A stretch of 64,000 bases of DNA, taken from positions 3,100,001 to 3,164,000 of the forward strand of contig NZ_CP101988.1 of the NCBI RefSeq assembly GCF_024508335.1, in the 5' to 3' direction. Below, one piece after another: positions 7,712 through 59,113 of this stretch (position 1 is the first letter of the stretch; every line of letters starts with the position of its first letter). Made by a program: the position numbers and the translations under genes. Origin of the DNA: Cellulomonas chengniuliangii (GTDB taxonomy: Bacteria > Actinomycetota > Actinomycetes > Actinomycetales > Cellulomonadaceae). The notes beneath the pieces were generated by a model. That model saw only the letters and a list, made by a program, of their open reading frames with translations. It did not search any database and was not told the origin of the DNA.

Positions 7712-9103
<1,392 letters not shown>

Positions 9104-42775: not shown

Positions 42776-44400
42776 GGGTTCTCGGCGCCTTTCCGGACGG
42801 AGGTCGGGGACGTGGGCGACAGCGGTGGCACGACGGTCGGCGGTGGCGGCGACGTCTCGAGGACGGAGCCTGCGTCCGCAGGCCGCAAGAACAGCACACG
42901 GTCGGCGACGGCGTGCAGCGCCGTCACATCGTGGCCCACCAGGAGCACGCCGACCCCGGAGCGGGCCAGGTCGTGGACCAGGTCGAGCACATCGGCGGCG
43001 GTCCGGTCGTCGAGCATGGACGTGGCCTCGTCGAGCACCAGGAACTCTGGTTCCAGCGCCAGGGCCCGCGCCACGCACGCGCGCTGCAGCTCGCCGCCCG
43101 ACACCTCGTGCGGGCGGCGGCCGAGCAGCGCGGGGTCCAGCCCGACAGCCGCCGCGAGCGCGTCGGCGTCGACCTCCCGGCAGGCCAGCCGGGCGGGCAG
43201 CTCGATGGCCCGGCGGAGCGTCATGCGCGCGTCCACCGCCATGCGGGGATGCTGCGACACCCAGCCGACGCGCCGGCGCTGCGCAGGTGGAAGCGCCAGC
43301 CCGGCGCCGGCCACCCGCTGGCCGCCGAGGCTCACGCGCCCGGCGTCGGGTGACTCGAGCTGGGCCAGCACCGCCGCAAGGGTCGACTTCCCGGCGCCGG
43401 ACGGGCCGGTCAGGCCCACCACCTCCCCGGCGCGCACCTCGAGGTCCGTGGGAGCGAGCACCGGCCGGCCGCCGCGCGTCACGACGACGCCGCGGGCCGC
43501 GAGCGCCGCCGCGTCGGGGCTGACGGCGGGACGGGGCCGGGCGGCGGGGGCGGCGTCGCGCAGCACCTCGTCGGGGGCGCCGTGCGCGACGACGCGTCCG
43601 GCGGCGACCCGCGTCACGGTGTGGGCCACCTGGCGGGCGAGGGCGGTGTCGTGCGTGATCACCAGGACGGTGTGCCCTGCCCGCGCGTAGGACGCGAGCA
43701 GCACCCCGACGGTCCGCGACGCCTCCGCGTCCAGGCCCGAGGTGGGCTCGTCGGCGAGGAGCACGGGCGGGTGGTTGACCATCGCCGCCACGAGGTTGAG
43801 CCGCCCGAGCTGCCCGCCCGAGAGCTGGTGCGGGAAGCGGCCGAGCCAGGCCGGGTCCACCCCGGCCGCGTGGGCGAGCTCGACGAGCTGCTCTGCCTCG
43901 CCTGCGGCGCGGTGCGGATGCGCCGCGCCGAGGCGGGTCCGGCGCCGGCCAGCGACGCGCTGCGCCTCGCGGAGCTGGGCCGCGATGGTCCTGGTGGGAG
44001 TGAACGCGCCGCCGGCGCCCTGGGCGGCGGCGCCGATGACCCGGCCCCGCAGCCCGCGCACGCGCCGCGAGCCGTCCAGCAGGTCGATCGCCTCGCCGTC
44101 CGCGTGCAGGGTGGCGGCGCCCGTGGCGGTCGAGCCGGCGGGAAGCGTCCCGGTCAGCGCGGACACGACCGTGGACTTGCCCGCCCCGGAGGCGCCGAGC
44201 AGCACGTGGACCTGCCCGGGCAGCAGGTCCAGGTCGAGGCCGTCGAGCACGAGCGTGCTCCCATGGGCGACGGACAGCCCGCGGACCGCGACGCTCGCCG
44301 ACCCGTGGGCCTGCTCCTGCGGGCGGCCGGGCGCAGGCGACTCCTCCGGCGCCACGGCGAGCATCGGCTCGGAGGTCGGCAACAGCGTCGGCTCAGGCAT
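42766..44400 (-). CDS. Fused double ABC ATPase (NikDE/DppDF-like) coupled to urease
   Basis: 544 residues with two complete ATPase domains. Domain 1: Walker [17 protein letters not shown] (about 68), signature [13 protein letters not shown], Walker [13 protein letters not shown]. Domain 2: Walker [17 protein letters not shown] (about 343), signature [17 protein letters not shown], Walker [14 protein letters not shown]. It energises the two permeases encoded just before it. The C-terminal peptide-family extension (oligo-HPY) is absent from both halves, as in shorter NikD/NikE-type proteins. With the overlap into ureA this favours nickel or a nickel chelate as cargo; peptide transport remains possible. 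Confidence 0.88.
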
Positions 44401-45319
44401 GGTGGCCCTCCTCGCGACCGGCGAGGCAGCCGGCCAGGCAGATGGTGACGGCGACGAGCAGGCCCGCGGGGGCGGCCAGCGTCCACCACGCCTGGGACAG
44501 CAGCGCCTGCTGCCCCAGGTCCAGCAGCGCGCCGAGCGACGGTTGGTGCGGCGGAAGGCCGAGGCCCAGGAAGGTGAGCGTGGACTCGTGCCAGACGGCG
44601 TGCGGCACCAGCAGCCCGAACGCCACCGTGAGTTGCGTGGCCAGACGGGGGGCGGCGTGGTGGCGCAGCAACTGGCGCCGGGTGAGTCCGAGCGCGATCG
44701 CGGCCCGGTAGAAGTCCTGGCCGCTCAGGGTGAGCAGCTCGGCCCGCACCAGCCGGGCCGTCTGCGTCCAGTGCGTCGCGGCGACCACCAGCACGATGGT
44801 GACGAGGGACCCGCGCAGCGCGGCGGCGACGACGATGCCGAGCAGCAGGTGCGGCACCGCGTTGACCCCGTCGACCAGGCGCATGCCCCAGCGGTCGACC
44901 CGACCGCCGAGCAGCGCGCAGGCCGCCCCGACCACGGCGCCGACCACCACCGCGCCGAGCGCCCCGGCGAGCGCGGCGACCAGCGACACCCGCAGCCCGT
45001 GGGCCGAGCGGACGAACAGGTCCCGGCCGGCGAGGTCCGTGCCGAACGGGTGGGCGGGCGACGGGCTGGTGGCCCCGACGCCGTAGTCGACGTGGTCGAG
45101 GTCCACCTGGAGCAGCATCGGGACCAGCACGGCGTACGCGACCAGCAGCACCAGCCCGGCGGCCGCGACCCGGCGTGCGGGCAGGCGCGGGAGGCGGCGG
45201 CCAGGCGAGCGCCCGGCGGGGGCGCTCCGCGGCAGGGCGGCCGGCTCGGCGGGCGCGGGGACGGGAAGGGCGCGAGCCGCTGCCGCCGAGGGGACGTCGA
45301 CCAGGTTCTCAGAGCGCAT
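44393..45319 (-). CDS. ABC permease, DppC/NikC type (system B)
   Basis: 308 residues, six membrane helices after a Pro/Ala-rich N-terminus of about 45 residues. The DppC/NikC hallmark AHPFGTDLAGRDLFVRSAHGLR is followed by the permease loop FYRAAIALGLTRRQLLRHHAAP (EAA-like) and TFLGLGLPPHQPSLGALLDLGQQ. It overlaps the permease before it by 11 bases and the ATPase after it by 8, so the whole system B is translated as a chain. Cargo as for the ATPase: probably nickel or an oligopeptide-like chelate. Confidence 0.88.
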   Translation of the reverse strand: MRSENLVDVPSAAAARALPVPAPAEPAALPRSAPAGRSPGRRLPRLPARRVAAAGLVLLVAYAVLVPMLLQVDLDHVDYGVGATSPSPAHPFGTDLAGRDLFVRSAHGLRVSLVAALAGALGAVVVGAVVGAACALLGGRVDRWGMRLVDGVNAVPHLLLGIVVAAALRGSLVTIVLVVAATHWTQTARLVRAELLTLSGQDFYRAAIALGLTRRQLLRHHAAPRLATQLTVAFGLLVPHAVWHESTLTFLGLGLPPHQPSLGALLDLGQQALLSQAWWTLAAPAGLLVAVTICLAGCLAGREEGHHA

Positions 45320-46400
45320 CGGGGTCCGTCCTCGGGTCGATCCGCACCAGGCAGAGGTCGGCGAGCAGCCCGCCGAGCACCGCCACGGCGGAGAGCAGCA
45401 CGGTGGACGCGGCGAGCAGCGCGAAGTCCTGGGCGAGCGCCGCGCTGACCAGCGACTGGCCGAGCCCGGGCCAGGAGAAGACCTCCTCCACCAGCACCGA
45501 CCCGGCGACGACCTCCGGCAGCCGGGCGCCGGCGATGGCCAGCGTCGGCACCGCGGCGGTCGGCAGCACGTGCCTGGCCAGCACCTGCCGCTCGGGCACG
45601 CCGCGCAGCCGGGCCGCCTCGGTCGCGGGGCTGCGCAGCTGCGCGGTGACGGCGCGGTGCAGGTGCAGGGTGATCCAGGGCAGCTGGGCCAGCGCCACCG
45701 ACAGCACGGGCAGCACGAGGTGCCGACCCACCTGCCCGGGCGTCACGGCGGCGCCGGCGTCGGTGAGGCCGCCTGTGGGCAGCCAGCCCAGGCCGACCGC
45801 CAGCACCGCCATGAGGCCCATCGCGACGAGGAAGGCCGGCACGGCCGACAGCGCCCACAGCCCCGAGGTGAGGACCCGGGCCAGGAGCCCGTGCGGCTGG
45901 CGTGCCGCGATGAGCGCCAGCGGGACGGCCACTGCGGCGCCCAGCGCGAGGCCCAGCACCATGAGCAGCAGCGTCCACGGCAGCCGGGCGGCCACGACGT
46001 CCGCGACGGGCATCCGCGCCGATGTGGAGACGCCCAGGTCGCCGCTCACCAGGCCGGACGCCCACCGCCACCACGCCTCGGCCCAGTGGGCGCCGGCGCC
46101 GTGGGCGCCCGTGACGACGTCCTCGACGGAGGCCCGCGCGGCGCCGCCGGTGAACTCGTCGCGGGCGCCCAGGAACGCCGCGGCGGCGTCCGTGGGCGAG
46201 GCGGCGGCCAGCGCGAACACGGCCAGGCTGATGACGCCCATCAGGGGCGCCGCCCACAGGAGCCGGCGCCGGACCAGTCGCAGCACGGCCACGCGGCGCC
46301 CCGACGCGGCGCCGCGCGGCGCCGGGGCGACCAGGGGCATGCCGTCACCGGGCGCCGGCGCCACCGGCGCCTCCCGTCCCGTGTCGGAAATCAGAGTCAT
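45309..46400 (-). CDS. ABC permease, DppB/NikB type (system B)
   Basis: 363 residues. The first membrane helix (LWAAPLMGVISLAVFALAAA) is followed by the long periplasmic loop and WASGLVSGDLGVSTSARMPV, the DppB-type signature, then VVAARLPWTLLLMVLGLALG and the coupling loop EAARLRGVPERQVLARHVLP. Near the end, LVEEVFSWPGLGQSLVSAAL is another family marker. A 35-residue polar N-terminal extension is unusual. The ATG overlaps the binding-protein stop (ATGA). Confidence 0.88.
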   Translation of the reverse strand: MTLISDTGREAPVAPAPGDGMPLVAPAPRGAASGRRVAVLRLVRRRLLWAAPLMGVISLAVFALAAASPTDAAAAFLGARDEFTGGAARASVEDVVTGAHGAGAHWAEAWWRWASGLVSGDLGVSTSARMPVADVVAARLPWTLLLMVLGLALGAAVAVPLALIAARQPHGLLARVLTSGLWALSAVPAFLVAMGLMAVLAVGLGWLPTGGLTDAGAAVTPGQVGRHLVLPVLSVALAQLPWITLHLHRAVTAQLRSPATEAARLRGVPERQVLARHVLPTAAVPTLAIAGARLPEVVAGSVLVEEVFSWPGLGQSLVSAALAQDFALLAASTVLLSAVAVLGGLLADLCLVRIDPRTDPDAL

Positions 46401-48004
46401 CGCCGCGTCCAGTCCTGCACGTTGAACCACGGGCCCCACGCGACGCCGTGCTCGTGGGGCTCGAGCACGTGCTCGACGCCATCCCAGTCGTCCAGCCCCC
46501 GGGCCACGTAGGTGTGCTCGAGCGCGAACACGGCGACCAGCGGCGGGTTCGCCACCAGGACCGTCTGGAGCTCGCGGTACAGCGCGGAGCGCGCCGCCGG
46601 GTCGGGCTCGGTCCGCGCCGCGTCGAGCAGCCTGTCGACGTCGGGGTCGGCGTAGCCGGACGGGTTGGAGTAGGCGTCGTCCTCGTCGAACACGGCGAAG
46701 TCCGAGTGGAGCTGCCGGTAGGCCTGGGCGTCGGGGTCGTATGGCATGTCCCCGCCGCCGAGCACGAAGGCCTTCTCGTCCATCGCGGTCACGGCGTGGC
46801 GGCGGTCGACGCCCTCGAGCGCCACGTCGATCCCCAAGGGCGCCATGTCCGAGGCGAAGGCCTGCGCGACGTCCCGGCGCAGCGTGTCCTCGGCGAAGTA
46901 CATGAGGGTGAACGCGAACCGCACGCCGTCCTTGGCCCGGACCCCGTCGGGGCCCACGGCCCAGCCCGCGTCGTCGAGCAGCGCGGCGGCCGCGGCCGGA
47001 TCGTGCGCGAACACGGCCGACGGCTCGAAGGCGTCGCCCTGGGCGGGGGTGAACGGCGTGGCCACCGCCGTGCCGTGCCCCGCGAGGATGCCGTCGATCA
47101 TTGCCTGCCGGTCCGTGCCCAGGTTGACGGCCACCCGCACCGCCGGGTCCGCGAAGAAGGGCAGGGTGACCGGCAGCGAGATCGCCCGGAAGTCGCCCGA
47201 GGAGTTCGCCACCAGCTCGAGCCCGTCGGAGCCGGCGATCTGGGCCGCGATCCGCGGCGAGACCTGCGCCCCGTCGACCTCGCCTGAGCGCACCCGCTGG
47301 GCGCGGGCGTTCTCGTCCGCGACGAACGCCAGGTGGATCGTCCGCACCTGCGGCTCGCCGCCCCACCAGCCCTCGCGCGCCCGCAGCGTCATCGACTCGC
47401 CTTTGCGCCACTCGGCGAGCACGTACGGCCCGGTGCCGACGGGCTCGCTCGCCAGCGGCGAGCCGACCACGTCCCCGCCGAGCGCCTCGGACGCGGGGAT
47501 GCCCAGGGTCAGGCGCGCGGGCAGCCCGGCGTACGGGTACGCCAGGTCGAACCGCACGGTCAGCGGGTCGATCGCGGTGACCTGCTCGACCATCTCGTAG
47601 TCCGCGGCCATCCAGGAGCCCACCGCCGGGTCGCGCACCGCGTCGAACGCCGCGACGACGTCCTGCGCGTCGAACTCGGAGCCGTCGCTGAACGTGACGC
47701 CCTCGCGCAGCCGGACGGTCCACGACGTGAGGGTCGCGTCGGCCTCCGGCATCGCGACGGCGAGCCCCGGCTCGAGCACCCCGTCCGCCCCCACGGCGAC
47801 CAGGCCGTCGTAGAGCTTGGACGTGATGCCCAGCGGGTACTCGAGCGGGTGCAGCGAGCCGTACTCGCCCGTCTCGGCGAGGCGCAGCGTGGCCGCGTCG
47901 TCGGAGGCGCCCGCGGCCGCGCCCGAGACCGCCGCGGAGCAGCCGGACGCGGCGAGCACGAGCGCTCCGAGGAGGACGGCGGGCCGAGAGTGGCGCAGGC
48001 GCAT
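46397..48004 (-). CDS. Lipoprotein substrate-binding protein, SBP family 5 (system B)
   Basis: 535 residues. A lipoprotein signal (PAVLLGALVLAASGCSAAVS) places the acylated Cys at about residue 22. Family 5 blocks: LYDGLVAVGADGVLEPGLAV, SWTVRLREGVTFSDGSEFDA with AQDVVAAFDAV, EPVGTGPYVLAEWRKGESM and AVRVAVNLGTDRQAMIDGIL. It would bring a peptide, nickel chelate or similar solute to permeases B. Similar proteins bind nickel through His or a chelator; His-containing C-terminal stretch VEHVLEPHEHGVAWGPW is notable. It starts 11 bases after the system A permease gene, so systems A and B are contiguous. Confidence 0.88.
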   Translation of the reverse strand: MRLRHSRPAVLLGALVLAASGCSAAVSGAAAGASDDAATLRLAETGEYGSLHPLEYPLGITSKLYDGLVAVGADGVLEPGLAVAMPEADATLTSWTVRLREGVTFSDGSEFDAQDVVAAFDAVRDPAVGSWMAADYEMVEQVTAIDPLTVRFDLAYPYAGLPARLTLGIPASEALGGDVVGSPLASEPVGTGPYVLAEWRKGESMTLRAREGWWGGEPQVRTIHLAFVADENARAQRVRSGEVDGAQVSPRIAAQIAGSDGLELVANSSGDFRAISLPVTLPFFADPAVRVAVNLGTDRQAMIDGILAGHGTAVATPFTPAQGDAFEPSAVFAHDPAAAAALLDDAGWAVGPDGVRAKDGVRFAFTLMYFAEDTLRRDVAQAFASDMAPLGIDVALEGVDRRHAVTAMDEKAFVLGGGDMPYDPDAQAYRQLHSDFAVFDEDDAYSNPSGYADPDVDRLLDAARTEPDPAARSALYRELQTVLVANPPLVAVFALEHTYVARGLDDWDGVEHVLEPHEHGVAWGPWFNVQDWTRR

Positions 48005-48015
48005 GGGACGGCCCT

Positions 48016-49011
48016 TCAGGAGACGGAGATGCGAGGGTCGGCGGCGGACTGCAGGACGTCGGCCACCGCGTTGACGACGACGTACAGGCCGCCCAGCACG
48101 AAGGTGACGCCGGCGATCGCCGGGAAGTCGGAGACCGGCAGGCTCGCCAGAAGGTACGAGCCCAGGCCGCCCCAGGTGAAGACCCCCTCGATGAGCAGCA
48201 CGCCCCCGAACATGAAGCCGAGCTGCAGCGCGCCCATCGACAGCGTCGCGTTGAGCGAGTTGCGCAGCACGTGCTTGCGCAGCACCTGCAGCTCGCCGAG
48301 GCCCTTGGCGGTGGCGGTCCGCACATGGTCCGAGCGCAGCGTGTCGGTGAGGCTCGACCTGAGCACCCGCCCGATCGCCAGCGCCGGCCCGACGGCGAGC
48401 GCGAGCGCCGGCAGGGCGACGTGCGCCAATGCGTCGCCCGCGGCGGGCAGGTCCCCGGCCAGCAGGCTGTCGAGGATGCTCAGGCCGGTGGGCCCGCCCT
48501 CGACGCCCCCGCGCCCCGACGCGGGCAGCCAGCCCAGCATCTTGTAGAAGACGATCAGCCCGACGATGCCGAGCATGAACGTCGGCGCCGTGGAGCCGAG
48601 GAACAGCAGGCCGCGGAAGGGGCCCGACAGCGGCCAGCGCAGCATGCTGGAGACGGCGAACGCGAGGCCGAGCAGCAGGGCCACCGCGAACGCGACCAGG
48701 ACGAGCTCCATGGTGGCGGGCAGGTACGCCGAGATGTCCTGCATCACGGGACGCCGAGTGCGGAACGACGTCCCCAGGTCCCCGGTGGCGATGCCGGTGA
48801 CGAAGGAGAGGTACCGGGCCAGGGCCGGCTCGTCGAGCCCCAGGCGGGCGCGCGCCGCCGCGACGGCCTCCGGGGAGGCGTTGGCGCCGATGGTCGCCGC
48901 GACGGGGTCGGCTCCGGATACCTCCTGCAGCAGGAACAGCACGAAGGACAGGACTAGGAGCAGGCCGAGCAGCGAGGCCAGGCGGATGCCGATGAAGCGC
49001 AGGTGGGGCAT
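48016..49011 (-). CDS. ABC permease, DppB type (system A)
   Basis: 331 residues, six helices. Signatures: RFIGIRLASLLGLLLVLSFV at the N-terminus, LGLDEPALARYLSFVTGIAT, TGDLGTSFRTRRPVMQDISA and the coupling loop RSDHVRTATAKGLGELQVLRKH. GGAGGTGA lies before the ATG and includes the stop of the upstream permease (5-base gap). It pairs with the DppC-type protein encoded upstream as transporter A of the cluster. Confidence 0.9.
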   Translation of the reverse strand: MPHLRFIGIRLASLLGLLLVLSFVLFLLQEVSGADPVAATIGANASPEAVAAARARLGLDEPALARYLSFVTGIATGDLGTSFRTRRPVMQDISAYLPATMELVLVAFAVALLLGLAFAVSSMLRWPLSGPFRGLLFLGSTAPTFMLGIVGLIVFYKMLGWLPASGRGGVEGGPTGLSILDSLLAGDLPAAGDALAHVALPALALAVGPALAIGRVLRSSLTDTLRSDHVRTATAKGLGELQVLRKHVLRNSLNATLSMGALQLGFMFGGVLLIEGVFTWGGLGSYLLASLPVSDFPAIAGVTFVLGGLYVVVNAVADVLQSAADPRISVS

Positions 49012-49016
49012 GGCGG

Positions 49017-49961
49017 TCACCTCCGGTGGGCGAGCCGGTTGCGCACTGCGTCGCCGGCGAGGTTGGACAGGAGGCTGAGCAGCATCACCGCGAGCCCGGG
49101 GACCAGCGGGATCCACCACGCGTCGAGGATCTCGACGAGCCCGCGCGAGGTGTCTGCCCCGAGCTCGGGCGCCGGGGCGGGCTGCCCCAGGCCGAGGAAG
49201 GACAGCGACGCGAGCACCATGACGACGTTGCCGATGTCGAGGCTCGCGGTGATGACGGCCGTGGGCACCACGCCCGGCAGCACGTGCCGCCACATGACCC
49301 GCATCCGGCCGACGCCCGCCATCCGGGCGGCCTCGACGTGGGGCCGGGCCATGATGCCGCGCACCTCGCCGCGGATGATCCGCGCGTAGTACGGCCACCA
49401 CACCACGATCACGGCGAGGAACGTGTTGAACAGGCCCGGGCCGAGCGCGGCCGCCACGGCCACCGCCACGAGCATCGACGGCAGGGCGAGGAACACCTCC
49501 GTGGTGCGCATCAGCAGCGCGTCCACCCACCCGCCGAACATGCCCGCGACGAACCCGACGACGGCGCCCACCACCAGCCCCACCGCGGTGACCACCAGGG
49601 CCAGCAGCCAGGAGGTGCGCAGCCCCACGAGCACCCGCGAGAGCGTGTCGCGGCCGATCTGGTCGGTGCCCAGGATGTGCTCGACGTCGGTGAAGGGCGT
49701 GAGCTTGGGCGCGGCGACCGGCTGCACCGGGTCGTGCGGGGCGAGGAGCGGGGCGAGCACCGCGATGACGGTCACCAGGACGAGCAGGCCGATGAGGATC
49801 CAGTCGCCGATGCGGCGGCCCCTCGTGTCGACGCCCGAGCCGCGGGGACGGCGGGCGAGCCGCCAACGCGGCGCCGGGCCGGGCGACGGCGCGGCGGCGG
49901 CAGGGCCCCCGCCTCCCGCCGGAGCGGGCAGCGGTCCCGCCGGGACCATGACGTCGGTCAT
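49017..49961 (-). CDS. ABC permease, DppC type (system A)
   Basis: 314 residues. After a Pro/Ala-rich 45-residue start come LLVLVTVIAVLAPLLAPHDP, EHILGTDQIGRDTLSRVLVG (the DppC signature), the coupling loop RPHVEAARMAGVGRMRVMWR and ASLSFLGLGQPAPAPELGAD. The ATG overlaps the ATPase stop (TGATG). Together with the downstream DppB-type protein it forms the membrane pore of system A, for a peptide-like or guanidino cargo that cannot be read directly. Confidence 0.9.
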   Translation of the reverse strand: MTDVMVPAGPLPAPAGGGGPAAAAPSPGPAPRWRLARRPRGSGVDTRGRRIGDWILIGLLVLVTVIAVLAPLLAPHDPVQPVAAPKLTPFTDVEHILGTDQIGRDTLSRVLVGLRTSWLLALVVTAVGLVVGAVVGFVAGMFGGWVDALLMRTTEVFLALPSMLVAVAVAAALGPGLFNTFLAVIVVWWPYYARIIRGEVRGIMARPHVEAARMAGVGRMRVMWRHVLPGVVPTAVITASLDIGNVVMVLASLSFLGLGQPAPAPELGADTSRGLVEILDAWWIPLVPGLAVMLLSLLSNLAGDAVRNRLAHRR

Positions 49962-51988
49962 CAGAACTCCCCCCTGCGCACGCACGCCACCTCGTGGCGC
50001 AACGTGACGTCGTTCGTGGGACGGTCCCCCACCGCGGCCAGCTGGACGCCGACGACGGTGCTCGCGCACTCCGGCAGGGCCACCGGGCAGCGGGGATGGA
50101 AGGCGCACCCGGTGGGCGGGTCGAGCGCGCTCGCCGGCTCGCCGGCCAACGGCAGGACGGTGCGGCCCGGCTGCGGCACCGCCGCGACGAGGTTGCGGGT
50201 GTACGGGTGCCGCGGGGTGGCGATCACGTCCTCCGCCCGGCCGACCTCGACGATCCGGCCCAGGTACATCACCGCGATGCGGTCCCCGATGATCCGGGCG
50301 ACCGCCAGGTCGTGCGTCACGAACATGACGGCGATGCCGAGGTCGCGCCGCAGCTCGTTGATCAGGTTGAGCACGTTCGCCGCGACCGACACGTCGAGCG
50401 CGCTCGTCGGCTCGTCGCACAGCAGCACCTGGGGCGGCACGATCGTCGCGCGGGCCAGGGCCACGCGCTGGCGCTGGCCGCCGGACAGCTCCCCGGGCAG
50501 GGCGTCCAGCACCGAGCCGGGCAGGCCCACCCGGTCGAGGATGGCGAGCGCCTTCTCCTCCTTCTCCGCTGTGGGGGTTCGCCGCGGCAGGCGCTCGTGC
50601 AGCACCTCGCGGATGGTCAGCCAGGGGGTCAGGGACGAGCCCGCGTCCTGGAACACCATCTGCACGTCGGTGCCGCGCGGCCCGCGCAAGGCGCCGGTGT
50701 GGCGCTTCTCGAGCTGGCCGGCCACCCGCAGCAGGGTCGACTTCCCCGAGCCGGACTCCCCCACGATCGCCACCGACTCACCGGGCTGCAGGTCGAGGGT
50801 GACGCCCCGCAGCGCCGACAGCGTGGCCCGCCGCCCGCGCTCGTCGCGCACCTGGAACGAGCACTCGAGGTCGGCGGCCTGCACCAGCGGCGCGCCGCGC
50901 TGGGGGGTGGGCGCCGGCGGCAGCGGGGGCAGCAGCTCCTGGGCCGACTCGAGGGCGCCGAGCTCCTCCGCACGCCGACACGCGGCCAGGTGGGAGTGCT
51001 CCACGTCGTCGGGGGCCCCCGCCGCGCGTAACGCGGGCTCCTGCTCGTGGCAGGCCTCCTCGACGAACCGGCAGCGGGAGGCGAACGGGCAGCCGGTCGG
51101 AGCGGCGCCGGCGGACTCCGTGGGCAGCGCCCACAGCGGTCGGGTGCGGTCGGAGTCCAGCGACAGCCGCGAGCCCAGCAGCCCGCGGGTGTACGGGTGA
51201 CGGGGCGACTCGAGCACCTGCCGCGTGGTCCCGGTCTCGACGATCCGGCCGCGGTACATCACCGCGATCCGGTCGGCGATCTGCGCGGCCACGCCCAGGT
51301 CGTGGGTGATGAGGACGATCGAGCAGCCCAGCTCGTCCCGCATGCCGGCCAGGAGGGTGAGCACCTGCGCCTGCACCGTGACGTCCAGGGCCGTGGTGGG
51401 CTCGTCCGCGACCACCAGCTCGGGGTCGCCCGCGACGGCCATGGCGATCATGACGCGCTGGCGCAGGCCGCCGGACAGCTCGTGCGGGTACGAGCGGTAG
51501 CGCCGCTCGGGCTGCGGGATGCCGACGGCCCGCATCAGCCGGATCGCCTCCTCGGCCGATCCGGCCTTCTCCGCGACCTGCGTGCCGACGTGCATGGTCG
51601 GGTTGAGGGACGTCATCGGGTCCTGGAACACCACGCCGAGCCGGCTCCGACGCGCCTGGCGCAGCTGCTGCGGAGACGCGGTGCGCAGGTCCAGGCCGGC
51701 GACCTCGAGCGAGCCGTCGATGCGGGGCCGCGAAGACTCCGGGAGCAGGCCCAGCATCGACATGCTCATCACGCTCTTGCCGGACCCGGACTCGCCGACG
51801 ATGCCGACGATCTCGCCCCGCCCGATCTCCAGGTCGACGCCGTGCAGGATCTGGGAGCGGACGCCGTTGCGCTCGAGGCTCACGTCCAGCCCGCGCAGCC
51901 GGGCCACCACGCCCCGCGGGCTGGCGACGGGCGCCTCGACGGCCTGCGCCTCGGTGAGCGGTGCGGCGAGCGATGCGGCTACATCCAT
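49961..51988 (-). CDS. Fused double ABC ATPase, DppD-DppF type (system A)
   Basis: 675 residues, two ATPase domains in one chain. Domain 1: IVGESGSGKSVMSMSMLGLL (about 64), HELSGGLRQRVMIAMAVAGD, LVVADEPTTALDVTVQAQ, then the oligopeptide C-terminal motif RHPYTRGLLGSRLSL and a Cys cluster (TGCPFASRCRFVEEACHEQE). Domain 2: IVGESGSGKSTLLRVAGQLE (about 410), GELSGGQRQRVALARATIVP, LLCDEPTSALDVSVAANVLN, RHPYTRNLVAAV and GCAFHPRCPVALPEC. Both Cys clusters are the iron-sulfur-type sites of peptide transporter ATPases. AAGGAG lies 9 bases before the ATG. Confidence 0.92.
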   Translation of the reverse strand: MDVAASLAAPLTEAQAVEAPVASPRGVVARLRGLDVSLERNGVRSQILHGVDLEIGRGEIVGIVGESGSGKSVMSMSMLGLLPESSRPRIDGSLEVAGLDLRTASPQQLRQARRSRLGVVFQDPMTSLNPTMHVGTQVAEKAGSAEEAIRLMRAVGIPQPERRYRSYPHELSGGLRQRVMIAMAVAGDPELVVADEPTTALDVTVQAQVLTLLAGMRDELGCSIVLITHDLGVAAQIADRIAVMYRGRIVETGTTRQVLESPRHPYTRGLLGSRLSLDSDRTRPLWALPTESAGAAPTGCPFASRCRFVEEACHEQEPALRAAGAPDDVEHSHLAACRRAEELGALESAQELLPPLPPAPTPQRGAPLVQAADLECSFQVRDERGRRATLSALRGVTLDLQPGESVAIVGESGSGKSTLLRVAGQLEKRHTGALRGPRGTDVQMVFQDAGSSLTPWLTIREVLHERLPRRTPTAEKEEKALAILDRVGLPGSVLDALPGELSGGQRQRVALARATIVPPQVLLCDEPTSALDVSVAANVLNLINELRRDLGIAVMFVTHDLAVARIIGDRIAVMYLGRIVEVGRAEDVIATPRHPYTRNLVAAVPQPGRTVLPLAGEPASALDPPTGCAFHPRCPVALPECASTVVGVQLAAVGDRPTNDVTLRHEVACVRRGEF

Positions 51989-52094: not shown

Positions 52095-53450
52095 TCACGT
52101 GCGGGCCAGCGACGCGACCTGGGCGGATTTCGCCCTGGCGGCGGCGTCCGCGGCCAGGACCTCCGCGATCCGCCGTTGACGGGACTTCGACGTCACCGCC
52201 ATCAGCACGGCGACCACGAGCGACAGCCCTGACGCCCCCAGCCACAGCGCCTTCGCGCCGTGGTGGTCGAGCACCAGGCCGCCGAGCACGGGGCCCACGG
52301 CCATCGCCAGGGAGTGCGTCACGCCGTACACGCCCTGGTAGCGGCCACGCCGCTCCGGGTGGGCCAGGTCGGCGGTGATCGAGGTCGCCTGGGGGTGCGA
52401 GCCCATCTCCCCGAGGGTCCAGATCGCGACTGCCACGAAGTACATCGCCAGGGACGCGGCCGCCGCCTGCAGGCCCACCCCCACCGCGGTGAGCGTGATG
52501 GCGACCGCGATGACGATGTCCCGCGACCACCGGTTGAGCAGGCGGGCGGTGGGCAGCTGGAGCACGCACAGCAGCAGCCCGTTGAGCGTGAGCAGCAGCC
52601 CGAAGTGGCTCGACGGGTGCCCCTGCTGCGTCATGACCAGCGGCAGCGTGGTGGTGGACTGCACGTACACCACGGAGTACACGAACATCACGGCCGCGAA
52701 GGTCATGAACACCCTGTCCCCCAGCACGGCCACCAGGCCGCCGCCACGGCCGCCCGCGCCGCGCTCGGCGCCCCGTGCGGTCGGCGGGGCCGGGGTGACC
52801 GCGAGGTCGGCGGGGTCCGCGGCGCCGGCCGGGCGCTCCGGGCCCACGGCGTCGGGCACGGCGAGCCGGGTCTCCGGCACCTTCACGGCGAGCACCGCGG
52901 TGGAGACCAGCACCAGCGCGGCCTGGCACCAGAACAGCAGCGAGAACGAGTACATGGCCATGAACCCGGCCGCGAGCGGGCCGATCGCGTAGCCGAGGTT
53001 CACGGCCCAGTAGTTGTAGTTGAACGCCGCCCGGCGGTGCCGCGGCTCGACCAGGTCGCCCACCATCGTGTGGATGACCGGCCCGGCGGCCCCGTTGAAC
53101 AGGCCGTACACCGTCAGCAGCGCCGCGATCAGCAGCGCGCCGTCCACGAGCGGGATCGCCACGAGCACCAGGACCGACAGCAGCTCGCTGCCCAGCAGCA
53201 CCTTGCGGCGCCCGATCCGGTCGGCCAGCACCCCGCCCGCCAGGGAGGACACCACCACGCCGACGCCGTACGCGGCGACGACCAACCCCGCCCCGGCCGC
53301 CGACATGCCGATCGACGAGGTGAGGAAGATGGTCATGTAAGGGACGACGAAGCGGCCGATCCACACCACGAGCTGGGCGGTCCACAGCCACCAGAACGTG
53401 GCGGGGAGGTCGCGCAGCCGGGTGTGCGCAGCGGTCTCGACCGGGGTCAT
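52095..53450 (-). CDS. MFS efflux-type carrier in the urease/ureohydrolase cluster
   Basis: 451 residues, 12 helices with a polar central loop rich in Pro and Ala (about 205-240). The loop GGVLADRIGRRKVLLGSELL is the DHA1-type motif; RRAAFNYNYWAVNLGYAIGP and GSHPQATSITADLAHPERRG recall YceL/MDR-like members. It may export or import a small solute; the direction cannot be read. It lies between the ureohydrolase-binding protein block and ABC system A and has AAGGA 7 bases before its ATG. A strong terminator precedes it, so it probably has its own promoter. Confidence 0.82.
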   Translation of the reverse strand: MTPVETAAHTRLRDLPATFWWLWTAQLVVWIGRFVVPYMTIFLTSSIGMSAAGAGLVVAAYGVGVVVSSLAGGVLADRIGRRKVLLGSELLSVLVLVAIPLVDGALLIAALLTVYGLFNGAAGPVIHTMVGDLVEPRHRRAAFNYNYWAVNLGYAIGPLAAGFMAMYSFSLLFWCQAALVLVSTAVLAVKVPETRLAVPDAVGPERPAGAADPADLAVTPAPPTARGAERGAGGRGGGLVAVLGDRVFMTFAAVMFVYSVVYVQSTTTLPLVMTQQGHPSSHFGLLLTLNGLLLCVLQLPTARLLNRWSRDIVIAVAITLTAVGVGLQAAAASLAMYFVAVAIWTLGEMGSHPQATSITADLAHPERRGRYQGVYGVTHSLAMAVGPVLGGLVLDHHGAKALWLGASGLSLVVAVLMAVTSKSRQRRIAEVLAADAAARAKSAQVASLART

Positions 53451-53593: not shown

Positions 53594-55225
53594 TCACTTC
53601 GAGGCCGCGGCCTCGGCGACGGTGAGCGTCGCGAAGTCGAGCGTGGCCGGGGCCGCGATCGAGTGGGACTCCTCGACCCCTTCGAGCCAGGCCTGGGCGA
53701 CCATGAAGTCGGTGGTCCAGGCGAAGGTCGGGGCGCACCCGGAGTCGTACGCCGACTTGCCGGCCGTCACGTACGCCTCGTCCGAGCCGGTGGTCACGGC
53801 CTCGCGGAGCAGCGCCGTGGTGGTCTCGTCCGAGCACTGCAGGTGGTTGAGCCCGCCGTCCGGGTCCCAGAACACGTGCCCGTGCATGAACGCGTTGTTG
53901 GAGTCCGGCCACGTCTCCGGGGAGACCATGACGTCCGGGGCGCCCTCCGGGTTGGACGGGAAGTCGCCGAAGACCTCAGACGCCTGGTGGCTCGTGACCG
54001 TGGCCTTCAGGCCGAGCGCCTGGAGCTGCGCCGCGATGATGTTCGCCATCTGCGCGGCATCGGCGCCGCCCGCGCTGTGCCCGATCTGGATCGCGGTGCC
54101 CGCCGGAAGCGAGGACACCCACTTCTCCAGGGCCGCGGGATCGTGCACGAGCTCACGGGAGTCGACGTCGCCGGGCAGCGCGCCCTTCGGGTAGTAGCCC
54201 TCGGCGGGAACCGACCCCACCCCGCTGACCTGGTCGATCAGGGCCTTCCAGTCGATGCCCTCGAACAGGGTGCGGCGCGCGTCGGCGTCGGCGAGCAGCT
54301 CCCGGTTCGGGTTCATGTACATGACCCCCACCTGGAAGGACGGCAGCGCGTACGCCTCGAGCCCGTCGGAGTCGAGGTACTTCTGGCGCGAGGCCGTCGG
54401 GACCGCGGAGAGCAGCGCGTGCAGGTCGCCCTTCTCGAGCTCGAGCTGCATCGCCGAGATCTCCGTGTACACCGGAAGCTTCACGGTGGTGAACACCGGC
54501 TCCAGGCCGGCCCAGTGGTCCTCGAAGTACGTGAGCTCGTACCCCTCGCCCACCACGGCCTTCGTCAGCACGTACGGGCCCGTGCCGGCCGAGGTCGTCG
54601 ACAGGTACGTCTGCGCGAAGTCGTCGCCCGCCTGCTCGGTGATCACCGTGGGGCTGATCATGCGCGGCCCGTACGGGGAGGCGAGGTAGTCGAGGAACGC
54701 CGAGTTCGGCTCGGCCAGGGTGATCCGCACCGTGTGGGAGTCGATCTCCTCGACGTCCGCGACGTCCTGCACCATGTACGCCGGCCCGGCGTCCACGGCC
54801 AGGCGCCGCTGGAACGACGCCTCGACGGCGGACGAGTCGAAGGCTGTGCCGTCGTGGAACGTCACGCCCTTCCGCAGCACGAACGTGTACTCGGTGAAGT
54901 CGCTGCTGACCTCCCACGACTCCGCGAGCGACGGGACGATCGTCGCCTCGTCATGGTTGCCCGCCTCGTAGCGGACCAGGCCCTCGTAGGCGTTGGTGGT
55001 GATCGCCAGGCCGTTGCCGGAGTAGTACACGTCCGGGTCCGGCGGCTGGCCGATGTCGTTGAGCACGCCGAGCCGCAGGACGCCGTCAGTGGGCGCGGCG
55101 TTGGAGCCGCCGCCACCGCCGGAGGACTCGCCGCCCGCGCAGCCCGAGAGCAGCAGCGTGCCGACGGTCAGGAGGGCGAGCGGCAGGCGCGCGGCCTGTC
55201 GCCGGCGCATCGTTCGTGGGGTCAT
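53594..55225 (-). CDS. Lipoprotein substrate-binding protein, SBP family 5 (probably system A)
   Basis: 543 residues. The signal peptide ends in LLTVGTLLLSGCAGGESSGG (acylated Cys about residue 29). Family 5 blocks: NAYEGLVRYEAGNHDEATIV, YTFVLRKGVTFHDGTAFDSS, TSAGTGPYVLTKAVVGEGYE and ADARRTLFEGIDWKALIDQV. It is cotranscribed with the two ureohydrolases (41-base gap after them), so its ligand is probably their substrate or a precursor. ABC system A downstream lacks its own binding protein and is the natural partner. GAGGGA lies 8 bases before the ATG. Confidence 0.9.
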   Translation of the reverse strand: MTPRTMRRRQAARLPLALLTVGTLLLSGCAGGESSGGGGGSNAAPTDGVLRLGVLNDIGQPPDPDVYYSGNGLAITTNAYEGLVRYEAGNHDEATIVPSLAESWEVSSDFTEYTFVLRKGVTFHDGTAFDSSAVEASFQRRLAVDAGPAYMVQDVADVEEIDSHTVRITLAEPNSAFLDYLASPYGPRMISPTVITEQAGDDFAQTYLSTTSAGTGPYVLTKAVVGEGYELTYFEDHWAGLEPVFTTVKLPVYTEISAMQLELEKGDLHALLSAVPTASRQKYLDSDGLEAYALPSFQVGVMYMNPNRELLADADARRTLFEGIDWKALIDQVSGVGSVPAEGYYPKGALPGDVDSRELVHDPAALEKWVSSLPAGTAIQIGHSAGGADAAQMANIIAAQLQALGLKATVTSHQASEVFGDFPSNPEGAPDVMVSPETWPDSNNAFMHGHVFWDPDGGLNHLQCSDETTTALLREAVTTGSDEAYVTAGKSAYDSGCAPTFAWTTDFMVAQAWLEGVEESHSIAAPATLDFATLTVAEAAASK

Positions 55226-55266: not shown

Positions 55267-56472
55267 TCAGGCGCGGCGGAACACCTGGTTGCGGCGGTTG
55301 CCGTCCGCGTCCAGGCCGATCGCGTAGGGGTGCAGGAAGTCCGGCTCGGTGACGCCCTGGCGGTGCATCGCGATCCCGGTCATCGCCTCGCGGATGGCGC
55401 GGTTCGCGAGCAGCGCGGTGATCTCGCCGCGGTCGTCGTAGGGCGGGGACACCTCGACGACGTCCATCGCGACGATGCCCACCTCGGCGGCCAGCCGTCG
55501 CACGGCCCGCAGGATGTCGTTCGACGTGATGCCGCCCGGCTCCGGCGTGCCCGTGCCCGGGGCGTAGGCCGGGTCGCACACGTCGATGTCGAGGGAGATG
55601 TACAGGTGGTCGGCCTGGTCGAGCGCCTCGTCGACCGCCCGCTCGAGCACCTTGTCGAACCCGTCCCGGATGATCTCGGCCATGAAGTGCGTGCGCATCC
55701 TCTGGTCGTCCATCCAGTCGAGCGTCTCCTGCTCCGGCCAGTAGCCGCGCAGGCCCACCTGCACGAAGTTCTTGCCCGGCACGGCGCCCGAGTTGATGAG
55801 GTGGCGCATCGGGGTGCCGTGCGACGCCAGCGAGCCGGGCATGTCGTTCCCGGTGTCGGCGTGCGCGTCGAAGTGGACGATGCCGACCTTGCCGTAGCCG
55901 TAGTGGTCCGCCACGGCCGTCGCGGCCGGCCACGTGATGGCGTGGTCGCCGCCCAGGATGATCGGGATCGCCCCCGACGTGACCACCGTGCCGATGAACT
56001 TGCGGATGTCCTCGAAGGTCCGCGCGGTGTTGCCGACCGAGATCGGCGCGTCCCCGTAGTCGGCCATGACCAGCTCGTCGAACGCGTCGACGTGCGTGTC
56101 GAGCGAGAAGTGGGGGCGCCCGTATCCGCCCTTGTAGTCGCAGGACCGGATCGCGAGGGGGCCGTGGTTGGTGCCGCTGCGGCCGGTGGCGGTCGAGTCC
56201 CACGGCACGCCCAGCACCGCCACGTCGACCTTCGCGGCGACCAGGTCCTCGGGGGTCAGCGCGACGGGGAGCTTCGCGAACGTCTGGATGCCCGAGAACC
56301 CGCCCTCGGCCTTCCGGTTCGGGAACAGGAGGCCCGGGGCGCGGCCCTCGTTGAAGTCGTCGGTGGCGCCGTGGCCCTCGAGCCCTTCGCCGAGGCGGCG
56401 CGGCTGCTCCCAGAAGCCGTCCGGCCACTTGTCGTGGTGGTGGTCGTTGTCGTGGTCATGGTCGTGGGACAT
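55267..56472 (-). CDS. Ureohydrolase with His-rich N-terminus, guanidine-hydrolase-like (copy 1)
   Basis: 401 residues. Metal ligands of the arginase/agmatinase fold are all present: His177 (GGDHAITWP), Asp202, His204, Asp206 (HFDAHADTGND), Asp295, Asp297 (SLDIDVCDPAYAPGTGTPEP). The substrate loop reads GRSGTNHGP (98-105) where agmatinases usually have GARxGP, and an extension KWPDGFWEQPRRLGEG (15-30) precedes the domain. From memory these features recall the Ni-dependent guanidine hydrolase family. MSHDHDHDNDHHHD at the start should bind nickel. It would release urea plus ammonia or an amine. GAGGA lies 6 bases before the ATG. Agmatinase is the main alternative. Confidence 0.78.
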   Translation of the reverse strand: MSHDHDHDNDHHHDKWPDGFWEQPRRLGEGLEGHGATDDFNEGRAPGLLFPNRKAEGGFSGIQTFAKLPVALTPEDLVAAKVDVAVLGVPWDSTATGRSGTNHGPLAIRSCDYKGGYGRPHFSLDTHVDAFDELVMADYGDAPISVGNTARTFEDIRKFIGTVVTSGAIPIILGGDHAITWPAATAVADHYGYGKVGIVHFDAHADTGNDMPGSLASHGTPMRHLINSGAVPGKNFVQVGLRGYWPEQETLDWMDDQRMRTHFMAEIIRDGFDKVLERAVDEALDQADHLYISLDIDVCDPAYAPGTGTPEPGGITSNDILRAVRRLAAEVGIVAMDVVEVSPPYDDRGEITALLANRAIREAMTGIAMHRQGVTEPDFLHPYAIGLDADGNRRNQVFRRA

Positions 56473-56568
56473 GTGGGTCCTCGCGTTCGTGCGGGCCGGA
56501 GGTCCGGCGGGTGGGGCGGGCGGGTCGGCGGCGCTGGTCGGCTGGCGCCGCTGGTCTGGCGCTGCGGG

Positions 56569-57927
56569 TCAGTGCTCCGGGGTGCGGAAGACCTGGGTGC
56601 GCTGGGCGCCGTCGGCATCGAGGTTGAGCGCGTGCGGGTGCAGGTAGTCGGGGCCCGTGATGCCCATGCGCCGCATCGCGATCCCCGTCATCGCCTCGCC
56701 GATCGCCCGGTTCGCCAGCAGCACGGTGATCTCGCCGTTGTTGTCGTAGGGCGGGGCGACCTCGACGACGTCCATCGCCACGATGCCCACCTCGGCGGAG
56801 AGCCTCCGGACCGCGCGCAGGATGTCGATCGAGGTGATGCCGCCGGCCACGGGGGTGCCGGTGCCGGGCGCGAATGCGGGGTCGCACACGTCGATGTCGA
56901 GGGAGATGTACAGGTGGTCGGCCTGGTCGAGCGCCTCGTCGACCGCCCGCTCGAGCACCTTGTCGAAGCCGTCGCGGTCGATCTCCGCCATGAAGTGGGT
57001 CCGCATCTGGTGCTCGTCCATCCAGTCGAGCGTCTCGCGGTCCGGCCAGTACCCCCGCAGGCCCACCTGGACGAAGTTGCGCCCCGGCACGGCGCCCGAG
57101 TCGATGAGCTTGCGCATCGGCGTGCCGTGCGAGGCGAGCGCCCCGTTCATGTCCTCGCCGACGTCCGCGTGCGCGTCGAAGTGGACGATGCCGACCTTCC
57201 CGTGGCCGTAGTGGTCGGCGACGGCGGTGGCCGCGGGCCACGTGATCGCGTGGTCGCCGCCCATGATGATCGGGATCGCCCCGGACGTGACGACGGTGCC
57301 GACGAACTTGCGGATCGACTCGAACGTGCCGGGGGTGTTGCCCACGTGGATGGGCGCGTCGCCGTAGTCGCACATCGTCAGGACGTCGAACGGGTTGACC
57401 CGGACGTCGAGGTGCTGGCTGGGGAAGCCGTAGCTGCCGAAGTGCGGGATGGTGCGCAGCGCGAGGGGGCCGTGGTTGGTGCCGGAACGGCCCCCGGCCG
57501 TGGAGTCCCACGGCACGCCGAGGACGGCGACGTCGACCTTGGCCGCGACCAGGTCCTCGGGTGTCAGGGCCATGGGCAGTTTCGCGAAGGTCCGGATGCC
57601 CGAGTGGCTGCCGCCGTGCTTGCGGTTCACGTGGAACAAGCCGGGCGCGCGGCCCCCGTTGTGGTCGTCCACGGCCCCGTGCCCCTCGAGCCCCTCGCCC
57701 AGGCGGCGCGGCTGCTCCCAGAACCCCTCGGGCCACAGGTCGTGGCTGTGCGCGTGGCCCTCGCCCTCGCCGTCGTGCGCGTGGGCGTCGTGGCTGTCGC
57801 CCTCGTGCGCGTGGTCGTGGGCGTCGTGGCCCTCGTGCCCCTGCGGGCTCGCGGCGCTGGGGGTGTCGGGGCCGTCGCTGGCATGCCCGGCGGACGGGTC
57901 CGTGGTCTCGGCGTGCTCGCTGCTCAT
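56569..57927 (-). CDS. Ureohydrolase with long His-rich N-terminus, guanidine-hydrolase-like (copy 2)
   Basis: 452 residues, a close paralogue of the next gene with the same order of motifs shifted by 49 residues: GRSGTNHGP (147-154), His226, Asp251, His253, Asp255, Asp344, Asp346, all intact. Its N-terminal 63 residues include 11 His between positions 31 and 62 (HEGHDAHDHAHEGDSHDAHA), like the nickel stores of HypB or UreE. The two copies differ mostly at the N-terminus and around residues 157-180 (IPHFGSYGFPSQ against CDYKGGYGRPHF), which may change the substrate or make a mixed hexamer. It is the first gene of the ureohydrolase transcript; no ribosome binding site is visible. Confidence 0.78.
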   Translation of the reverse strand: MSSEHAETTDPSAGHASDGPDTPSAASPQGHEGHDAHDHAHEGDSHDAHAHDGEGEGHAHSHDLWPEGFWEQPRRLGEGLEGHGAVDDHNGGRAPGLFHVNRKHGGSHSGIRTFAKLPMALTPEDLVAAKVDVAVLGVPWDSTAGGRSGTNHGPLALRTIPHFGSYGFPSQHLDVRVNPFDVLTMCDYGDAPIHVGNTPGTFESIRKFVGTVVTSGAIPIIMGGDHAITWPAATAVADHYGHGKVGIVHFDAHADVGEDMNGALASHGTPMRKLIDSGAVPGRNFVQVGLRGYWPDRETLDWMDEHQMRTHFMAEIDRDGFDKVLERAVDEALDQADHLYISLDIDVCDPAFAPGTGTPVAGGITSIDILRAVRRLSAEVGIVAMDVVEVAPPYDNNGEITVLLANRAIGEAMTGIAMRRMGITGPDYLHPHALNLDADGAQRTQVFRTPEH

Positions 57928-57947
57928 GGCAGGAACGTAGGGCGCTG

Positions 57948-58064
57948 CCTAATCGTTTTTCCACGATCGCCGTCATGCGCAACACGGGTTTTACACAGCG
58001 GGCCACCAGGCGAGACCAGGAGACGCGCGAGCACCGCGCCGGAAACAATGGTGAAACGATTTGT
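57948..58064 (-). promoter_or_regulatory. Control region of the ureohydrolase genes with paired operator-like sites
   Basis: Two copies of the motif AATCGTTT stand in opposite orientation: CCTAATCGTTTTTCC (57948-57962, plus strand) and ACAAATCGTTTCAC (58051-58064, minus strand). They flank the probable promoter between the LacI-type regulator and the first ureohydrolase. The gap is unusually rich in A and T for this window. I found no guanidine riboswitch fold by eye. Confidence 0.4.
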
Positions 58065-59113
58065 CAGGCCATGGCCCGCGTGAGGGCTCCCGCCGTGGAG
58101 GCCCTCAGATGCACCGGGGCGGGAACGGTCTGCACCGTGCCGAGGGCGGCGGCCGGCCCGCGATCGTCCTCGAGGATCGCCACCAGGCGTTCCACGCACG
58201 CGACGCCCAACGCGTAGGCCGGCAGCTCGACGGCCGTCACCGGCGGATCCTCGGCCAGCAGCGCGGGCTCGTCGGCGCACGCCGCCACCAGCACGTCCCG
58301 GCCCGGCTGGCGACCCATGCCGCGCAGCACCGCCATGGCCGCCTGCGCCGCGAACGGCGACGCGGCCAGCACCAGGTCCACCTCGGGGCGATCCGCCAGC
58401 ACCGGCGCCAGCAGCTCCTCATGGCGGTCCACCGACAGCTCGCCGAACCGGCTCGCCACCAGCACGGGCGTCAGGCCCCGCTCCGCGGACCACGCGCCCA
58501 CGACGTCCCGCAGCACCTCGCCCCAGCCACTGTTCTCGTCCGGCGCCACCAGCATCGGGTGGCGCACGCCCTGCCGCGCGGCCGCGTCCAGCACCGCGCG
58601 CACCGCCGTCGCGTGATCCGCCGCCACCACGGCGCACGGCGGCATCGACGAGGGCACATGCTCCCCCGCCACCACGGGCACCGGCAGCGCCATCAGCTCG
58701 CGGGCGCGCAGGTCGTCCGCGATCGGGTCCACCACCACCACACCGTCGACGCGCGGCGCCGTGGTGCGCGGCCGGGAGGTGTCCGACGACAGCACCACGA
58801 GGTCGTGGTCGTGGCGATGGGCGGCCTCGACGGCCCCGGCGAGGAAGTCGCGGAAGTACGGCGTCCGCAGGTTCGCCGCGGCCCGCTCGTGGTGCACGCC
58901 CAGCGCCCGCGTCCGGCCGGTCCGGAGCCCTTGCGCCAGGGCGTTCGCGAGGTAGCCCAGGTCCTCGGCGGCGCCGCGCACGCGCTCACGGGTCGCGGGG
59001 GTCATCCGCCCCCGGCCGGAGAGGGCCTGCGAGGCCGTCGCCACGGACACCCCGGCGGCGGCAGCCACATCCTTGAGCGTCACGGCGCCCGCGCCGCGCC
59101 CTCTCGGAGTCAT
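58064..59113 (-). CDS. LacI-family transcriptional regulator
   Basis: 349 residues. Helix-turn-helix and hinge: VTLKDVAAAAGVSVATASQA (11-30) followed by LSGRGRMTPATRERV and LGYLANALAQGL. The periplasmic-binding-like effector domain (65-340) has VDGVVVVDPIADD, HPMLVAPDENSGWGEVLRD and VLVAACADEPALLAEDPPVT. It ends 136 bases before the first ureohydrolase gene on the same strand and is the only regulator in the 22 kb array, so it probably controls the array; its ligand may not be a sugar. The start has only a weak GGGTAGGG upstream. Confidence 0.88.
   Translation of the reverse strand: MTPRGRGAGAVTLKDVAAAAGVSVATASQALSGRGRMTPATRERVRGAAEDLGYLANALAQGLRTGRTRALGVHHERAAANLRTPYFRDFLAGAVEAAHRHDHDLVVLSSDTSRPRTTAPRVDGVVVVDPIADDLRARELMALPVPVVAGEHVPSSMPPCAVVAADHATAVRAVLDAAARQGVRHPMLVAPDENSGWGEVLRDVVGAWSAERGLTPVLVASRFGELSVDRHEELLAPVLADRPEVDLVLAASPFAAQAAMAVLRGMGRQPGRDVLVAACADEPALLAEDPPVTAVELPAYALGVACVERLVAILEDDRGPAAALGTVQTVPAPVHLRASTAGALTRAMA

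Follow-up and report, generated by a model that had tools for sequence, protein, structure and literature searches.

Two adjacent minus-strand genes, UhA and UhB, in a 64,000-nt stretch of the Cellulomonas chengniuliangii genome (contig NZ_CP101988.1, forward-strand positions 3,100,001 to 3,164,000; hereafter the window) most likely encode paired nickel ureohydrolases that act on guanidine or one of its close derivatives. We put at about one in two the chance that both are nickel enzymes of a nitrogen-scavenging operon in which guanidine, or a small derivative of it, is turned into urea and then ammonia, with an N-terminal leader that helps nickel loading. The gene order, the intact metal ligands, the conserved composition of the leaders, an old duplication under purifying selection and a guanidine riboswitch ahead of the homologous enzyme and importer in two relatives are observed; the substrate, the metal, the importer cargo and the roles of leader and pair are inferred.

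In the pathway we envisage, an importer encoded in the same gene run (importer 1: SBP1, ABC1, PerB1 and PerC1) would take up guanidine or a small derivative, from which UhB, and UhA with its shifted pocket, would release urea; the urease of the run would then convert this urea to ammonia. A second, NikA-like importer (importer 2) would supply nickel to the urease and probably to UhA and UhB, while the disordered leader, rich in histidine and acidic residues, most likely keeps Ni(II) near the enzyme and aids its loading. The original prediction, made from the sequence alone, had taken the two proteins for guanidine hydrolases rather than agmatinases. This proves half right: by tree they are neither agmatinases nor members of the guanidine hydrolase lineage GdmH (Sll1077), but a guanidine-linked and probably nickel-dependent relative.

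Active site, clade and riboswitch link

UhA (452 amino acids; 56569..57927, minus strand) and UhB (401 amino acids; 55267..56472, minus strand) are adjacent open reading frames whose products share 79% identity. Both had been credited with six metal ligands and a shared extension before the catalytic domain, and both features hold up: in the alignment, the ligands H, D, H, D, D, D as well as the catalytic His and Glu are complete in each protein, and the block WP[DE]GFWEQPRRLGEGLEGHGA lies ahead of both catalytic domains. The motif GTNHGP, also part of the prediction, is present in both and differs from the agmatinases compared (GARLGP, GGRHGP). It is found in 18/24 rows of the clade that holds UhA and UhB (the Uh clade, below) and in none of the 14 GdmH rows, 13 of which read GTRFGP and one GARFGP, and was thus rejected as a mark of guanidinases. 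The best PDB sequence matches of UhA and UhB are the guanidinases 7esr and 9fek (E 1e-50 to 1e-57), with metformin and dimethylguanidine hydrolases much weaker (E about 1e-27 to 1e-30). The window genome, a single contig of 3.57 Mb, carries four ureohydrolase genes; the two besides UhA and UhB are arginase-family proteins by eye, and no further match to a GdmH query was found in this genome at E<=1e-15.

Two trees were compared, one of 61 rows and one of 73 rows, to which 12 actinobacterial GdmH sequences had been added. In the smaller tree, the UhA rows (n=5; support 100/99) and the UhB rows (n=5; 85/87) each occupy one side of a branch, so that one old duplication explains the pair; two copies from a Propionibacteriaceae bin are sisters there and reflect a separate duplication event. 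In the 73-row tree, the same holds for the Uh clade (24 rows; 99/96), for GdmH (14 rows; 100/100) and for a group of agmatinase, GbuA, GpuA and proclavaminate amidinohydrolase (PAH) (6 rows; 100/98). A single clade of Uh and GdmH is rejected by the approximately unbiased (AU) test (p 0.016), as is a union of Uh with the agmatinase/GbuA/GpuA/PAH rows (p 0.0013), these tests being limited by long branches among the reference rows and their p values weakened because the groups were defined only once the first tree had been inspected. By sequence, then, UhA and UhB belong to an uncharacterised actinobacterial clade that is related to but distinct from GdmH. Assignment to GdmH is contradicted by Thr at the Sll1077 W305 site and by the AU test of the joint clade, and a place among verified agmatinases or with GbuA is rejected by the tree and its AU p of 0.0013. 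The phylogeny once proposed as a check on the assignment thus leaves the pair outside the verified agmatinases and guanidinobutyrases, and outside GdmH as well.

The nearest outgroup of the Uh clade in the trees are actinobacterial homologues named agmatinase (L028-L056, and Streptomyces NZ_CP108847; 48-54% identity), which do not form one group in the 73-row tree. Unlike Uh, 0/29 of them carry the GFWxQP block that follows the leader. In eight genomes that also hold a guanidine-I riboswitch, these homologues lie on another contig or >400 kb away from it.

UhA has diverged at pocket sites. According to excerpts of PMC11410670, T97 and W305 of Sll1077 are tied to guanidine specificity. At the T97 site, 8/8 UhA proteins have Gly and 8/8 UhB proteins Thr, a residue also seen in GpuA and others. 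All eight UhA carry Val at the T204 and E307 sites in place of the Thr and Glu of UhB and of all ten non-pair rows, a pattern that makes UhA look like the derived copy and UhB the ancestral-like one. Across eight pairs, we counted 13 fixed differences between UhA and UhB, 3/13 of them within two residues of a ligand or specificity site, a count for which no significance is claimed. Median ratios of nonsynonymous to synonymous substitution rates (dN/dS) of 0.15 for UhA and 0.11 for UhB (28 comparisons each) indicate that both are under purifying selection. The earlier suggestion that the paralogues split two substrates fits such a long-kept pair with a fixed difference at a specificity site. 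GbuA position 161, which we take to be a specificity site occupied by Met, is Met in UhA and UhB and Ser or Thr in several relatives.

The tie to guanidine comes from relatives, for which a scan of genome contigs gave 17 loci. In two of these, both from Streptosporangiaceae bins and with a Uh about 64-65% identical to the window's, a guanidine-I riboswitch lies directly 5' of an ABC1-PerC1-PerB1-Uh operon: at L011 870-978 with 75.7 bits (Rfam cut-off 63), and at L015 4760-4896 with 59.0 bits, below the cut-off but at E 5.5e-8. The importer ATPase behind the riboswitch is 56% and 54% identical to ABC1 versus 32% and 35% to ABC2. These riboswitches tie the Uh clade to guanidine, be it as substrate or only as signal. 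As background, 35/394 genomes of the class carry a guanidine-I riboswitch at E<=0.001. Inspection of the regions around 20 of 37 such places found true GdmH beside the riboswitch in 12/20, six times downstream on the same strand and six times divergent. Another riboswitch, L118 (G032:C366) 7836-7942 on the minus strand, precedes an operon with SBP1-, ABC1- and PerC1-like genes in which no ureohydrolase was matched; by eye, this operon also holds creatininase-type, glutamine-synthetase-type, class-26 peptidase-type and short-chain dehydrogenase/reductase genes.

Histidine-rich leaders and nickel

The UhA leader (57727..57927, minus strand) runs up to GFWEQP and has 13 His in residues 1-67, where 11 had first been counted; the UhB leader (56419..56472, minus strand) ends at the same block and has six, as first counted, in residues 1-18. 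Relative to the remainder of the same protein, His is enriched in the first 62 residues of UhA (hypergeometric P 1.7e-4) and in the first 15 of UhB (P 2.6e-5). A density of at least six His in 20 residues is reached, among 66 protein entries of the window (a set with some duplicates), by UhA, UhB and the run's UreG alone. All 18 leaders of the tailed subclade, the window's two included, are His-rich, with 5-13 His and 0-2 Lys or Arg. Since this His/acidic composition is kept while the sequences differ, the leaders are more than a product of chance. The riboswitch-bearing subclade lacks a His/acidic leader: neither of the two untailed leaders counted shows it, and the other three untailed rows, whose starts are uncertain, were judged by eye.

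That the leader is instead merely low-complexity sequence and plays no part in loading the enzyme with nickel strikes us as a serious possibility, albeit one with less than even odds. Its length varies from 16 to 67 residues across the tailed subclade, and AlphaFold predicts disorder for UhB residues 1-40 (predicted local distance difference test, pLDDT, <50). Relatives without a tail exist, and the absence of the nickel chaperone HypA reflects the background of the family (below). In addition, shorter His runs occur on homologues of about 50% identity, where nothing here ties them to nickel. Set against this are the composition kept in 18/18 leaders while the sequence drifts and the similar tail of UreG, both in the same run (His-rich C terminus, six His in 20 residues) and in C. 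aerilata L017. The homologues in question (L028, L035, L036 and L037; family code f11; about 52-53% identity) have brief His stretches at the start, for instance MGHDHGHH or MSHGHHH, and lack a GFWxQP block. A His-rich start is therefore wider than the Uh clade, and as a mark of this clade alone it was rejected.

In favor of nickel as the metal of UhA and UhB are the conserved His/acidic leader, the urease and importer 2 with its NikA-like character; at the level of the operon, the nickel connection first proposed is supported by a urea-splitting, nickel-linked run. In the window genome, neither HypA nor UreE_N gave a match, and no HypB-like gene was seen beyond the UreG type: the cobW-family matches are two UreG-type places plus a weak one below cut-off, and no gene of the run scores above the HypB cut-off. 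HypA is present in 14/221 genomes of the GTDB family and in 0/9 of its Uh-bearing ones. Among the relatives, 1/13 tailed genomes (that of L009) versus 5/5 untailed genomes have HypA (Fisher p 0.0007), in a comparison between separate clades of genomes whose completeness is not stated. Because HypA is rare in the family, and given these separate clades, we rejected its absence as proof that the tail stands in for chaperones. The Nitrospira inopinata guanidinase, for which the parts of PMC11410670 at hand describe activity although the host shows no nickel chaperone, argues in the same direction.

Substrate and the role of the pair

Several observations count against a nickel-dependent pair for guanidine or a small derivative. 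The Sll1077 W305 site is Thr in UhA and UhB, as in all 59 non-GdmH rows aligned, while T97 and W305 are both present in 12/12 actinobacterial GdmH adjoining riboswitches. Both proteins pass the cut-off (174.3) of the NCBIfam agmatinase model TIGR01230, with 183.2 and 189.3 bits, an outcome not expected under the original prediction, and the current model would label them agmatinases. No match of SBP1 pins down its substrate, and the urease does not directly follow in 3/7 pair loci. The riboswitch occurs in only 2/5 untailed relatives, with none in L014 (permissive threshold) or in L012 and L013 (gathering score). None was found in the window at gathering score or near the promoter at a permissive threshold, nor at gathering score in the tailed relatives L001-L010, L016, L017, L078, L079, L080 and L082 (L016 also at the permissive threshold). 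Since the subclades differ, linking the substrates of the tailed and the riboswitch-bearing one is an extrapolation at about 64% identity. Finally, the two genomes with the riboswitch-led Uh operon, G011 and G015, also carry a true GdmH (68% and 67%) with a separate guanidine-I riboswitch in front of it, which leaves room for a different Uh substrate in these genomes. A snoRNA match near the window's promoter (E 2.8) was taken as chance.

Some of these points would suit a substituted or larger guanidine, such as an N-alkylguanidine, an N-acylguanidine or guanylurea, with free guanidine as a mere signal or by-product and the paralogues cutting two such compounds; we regard this as possible but rather unlikely. 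With W305 lost in all 24 rows of the Uh clade, the pocket lacks the closure that it has in GdmH, and the two paralogues do not match at the T97 site, Gly in UhA against Thr in UhB, nor at those of T204 and E307, both Val in UhA. The coexistence with GdmH in G011 and G015 would be understandable, as would the isochorismatase-family and metallo-beta-lactamase (MBL)-fold hydrolases that the Uh operons of untailed relatives, those behind the L011 and L015 riboswitches included, also hold, which could trim an acylated guanidine. The operon of C. aerilata contains a second, agmatinase-like ureohydrolase. Importers of the Opp type usually carry larger solutes. What speaks against a larger substrate is that the run has no carbon-skeleton catabolic gene in the window and that, in the material available from PMC12508155, the guanidine-I riboswitch tested binds guanidine and not methylguanidine.

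UhA and UhB could form an obligate mixed hexamer like metformin hydrolase, an arrangement we consider possible but rather unlikely. The tandem order, the presence of both genes in 8/9 Uh-bearing genomes of the family and the precedent of MefH and DmgH (PMC11399263, in part) would fit such a complex. However, all ligands are kept in both members, unlike in the degenerate MefH beta subunit, and Streptomyces, among others, has loci with only one Uh gene, so that a homomer probably works in the Uh clade. Manganese-dependent enzymes of the agmatinase or guanidinobutyrase type, with the His tails as incidental metal buffers, are improbable given the rejected union with the agmatinase/GbuA/GpuA/PAH rows (AU p 0.0013), a run devoid of putrescine and gamma-aminobutyric acid (GABA) genes, and the riboswitch in two relatives.

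Among characterized systems, GdmH/Sll1077 (7esr, 7oi1) and the N. inopinata guanidinase (9fek) have the same fold, the same six ligands and the same catalytic His and Glu as Uh. As with GdmH, Uh has an adjoining importer and, in two relatives, a homologous operon behind a guanidine-I riboswitch; in the portion of PMC8390497 consulted, Sll1077 analogues under guanidine riboswitches are widespread. Unlike GdmH, UhA and UhB (36-37% identity to it) lack W305, have T97 in UhB only and fall into a separate clade, and the window genes come with a His leader, a urease in the run and a LacI-type regulator in place of a riboswitch. The same source names the Synechocystis GdmH locus with SsuA-, TM_PBP2- and NrtD-SsuB-type genes, whereas the window has an Opp-type importer, and it has neither a HypA match nor a HypB-like gene beyond the UreG type.

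Metformin hydrolase is built from a ureohydrolase pair, a mixed hexamer in which one member lacks its ligands (PMC11399263 and PMC11271267, both as excerpted). MefH/MfmAB/MetCaCb and DmgH share with the window the tandem ureohydrolase genes near nickel-related genes. In contrast to them, both window members keep six ligands, with no degenerate second subunit; the run has no hypA or hypB, and the sequences are distant. A further comparison is with the arginase-family pairs of PMC11271267, which have intact ligands in both members, include Actinomycetota and are given no function in the section at hand. UhA and UhB fit this description; neither His tails nor a connection to riboswitches or urease come up in that section. 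Pairs of this type may thus already have been published, and for some members so may the connection to riboswitches. The open-licence literature searched showed neither the His tails nor the urease/importer operon; it yielded only seemingly unrelated papers on a His-rich agmatinase and none on a ureohydrolase in Cellulomonas.

Targets of guanidine riboswitches are being assigned one by one. The pair points to a second actinobacterial ureohydrolase lineage that lacks the accepted specificity residue yet is riboswitch-linked, with an Opp-type importer, in two relatives. It offers a test case for what fixes guanidine specificity and for the way in which a nickel ureohydrolase acquires its metal in the absence of HypA, and it bears on the intact pairs without assigned function described in the part of PMC11271267 seen. 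A bolder version, which we hold to be doubtful, would make Uh a second lineage of guanidine-type hydrolases that use nickel, one lacking the Trp and bearing a nickel store at its N terminus. One operon would then combine substrate and nickel uptake, urea release and urea splitting without HypA, HypB or UreE, and the old duplication would have given rise to enzymes, or else subunits of one enzyme, whose pockets differ.

Gene run, promoter region and distribution

UhA and UhB sit in a minus-strand run from 59113 to 37961 (~21 kb; gaps <=143 nt) that reads LacI, UhA, UhB, SBP1, MFS, ABC1, PerC1, PerB1, SBP2, PerB2, PerC2, ABC2, UreA, UreBC, UreF, UreG, UreD. Taken as its first gene is a LacI-type regulator (58064..59113), whose NCBIfam matches stay below cut-offs; a LacI match adjoins Uh at 10 of the 17 loci from relatives, and in L005-L008 and L017 it lies on the other strand. 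Importer 1 comprises the family-5 solute-binding lipoprotein SBP1 (53594..55225), the fused double ATPase ABC1 (49961..51988; above the cut-offs of NikD and of the dipeptide ATPase PRK11308) and the permeases PerC1 (49017..49961) and PerB1 (48016..49011). A transporter of the major facilitator superfamily (MFS; 52095..53450) is encoded between SBP1 and ABC1.

Importer 2 consists of the NikA-like solute-binding lipoprotein SBP2 (46397..48004), the permeases PerB2 (45309..46400) and PerC2 (44393..45319), and a second fused double ATPase, ABC2 (42766..44400; best match NikE, below cut-off). For SBP2 the best NCBIfam model is NikA, below cut-off, and the best PDB matches are, in order, 8efz and 5u4o (named only as solute-binding), 4oet (a putative peptide-binding protein, which we take to be NikZ) and NikA 4oer. 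The urease genes follow: the gamma subunit UreA (42473..42775), the fused beta-alpha subunit UreBC (40297..42432), UreF (39563..40309), UreG with its His-rich C-terminal tail (38758..39570) and UreD (37961..38761), all of them, like the importer, MFS and LacI genes, on the minus strand. Urease alpha is found in two places in the window genome, one of them within the window; the second cluster (G000:C1:350651-351019) is about 46-52% identical to the window's.

Upstream of UhA, a proximal operator-like site (TAATCGTTT on the plus strand, AAACGATTA on the minus strand; 57950..57958) lies 31 nt before the start codon. All eight pair genomes have it; in L082, where extra sequence is inserted ahead of the ATG, it stands at -79. 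At a distance of about 103 nt from this proximal site lies a distal operator-like site (AAACGATT on the plus strand; 58054..58061), which a pattern search recovers in 6/8 pair genomes, L076 and L082 being the exceptions. A TAnnnT box (TACGTT; 57934..57939, minus strand), whose end is 6 nt from the ATG of UhA, suggests a possible leaderless transcript.

In the GTDB family, 9/221 genomes match UhA at E<=1e-120, 8/9 of them with the pair; one genome of the comparison, G518, shares its GTDB genus with the window genome. The order LacI-UhA-UhB-importer 1-MFS-importer 2, through ABC2, is intact in 7/7 pair loci with enough sequence (the window, L076 and L078-L082), the eighth, L077, being cut by a contig end. 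The urease directly follows importer 2 in four of these seven (the window, L076, L079 and L080), and a urease is found somewhere in the genome of all 17 relatives. Outside the pair loci, the fetched loci of Streptomyces, Quadrisphaera, Nesterenkonia, C. aerilata and the untailed group have a single Uh, and the two copies of the Propionibacteriaceae bin flank an SBP1. In C. aerilata, ureABCFGD lies beyond LacI, on its other side, and the agmatinase-like ureohydrolase is placed inside the Uh operon, between PerB1 and SBP2 (L017 16817-18448; L083 8768-9616). Two plasmids with homologues have cytosine permease and GABA-aldehyde dehydrogenase genes as neighbors, which were not used for the verdict. 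In L012, L013 and L014 (Kineosporia type), the Uh operon stands between an allophanate hydrolase-like gene, preceded in L013 and L014 by a urea carboxylase-like one (by eye), and allantoinase-like, racemase and allantoicase genes, so that the surroundings of Uh there amount to a wider urea and purine-nitrogen island.

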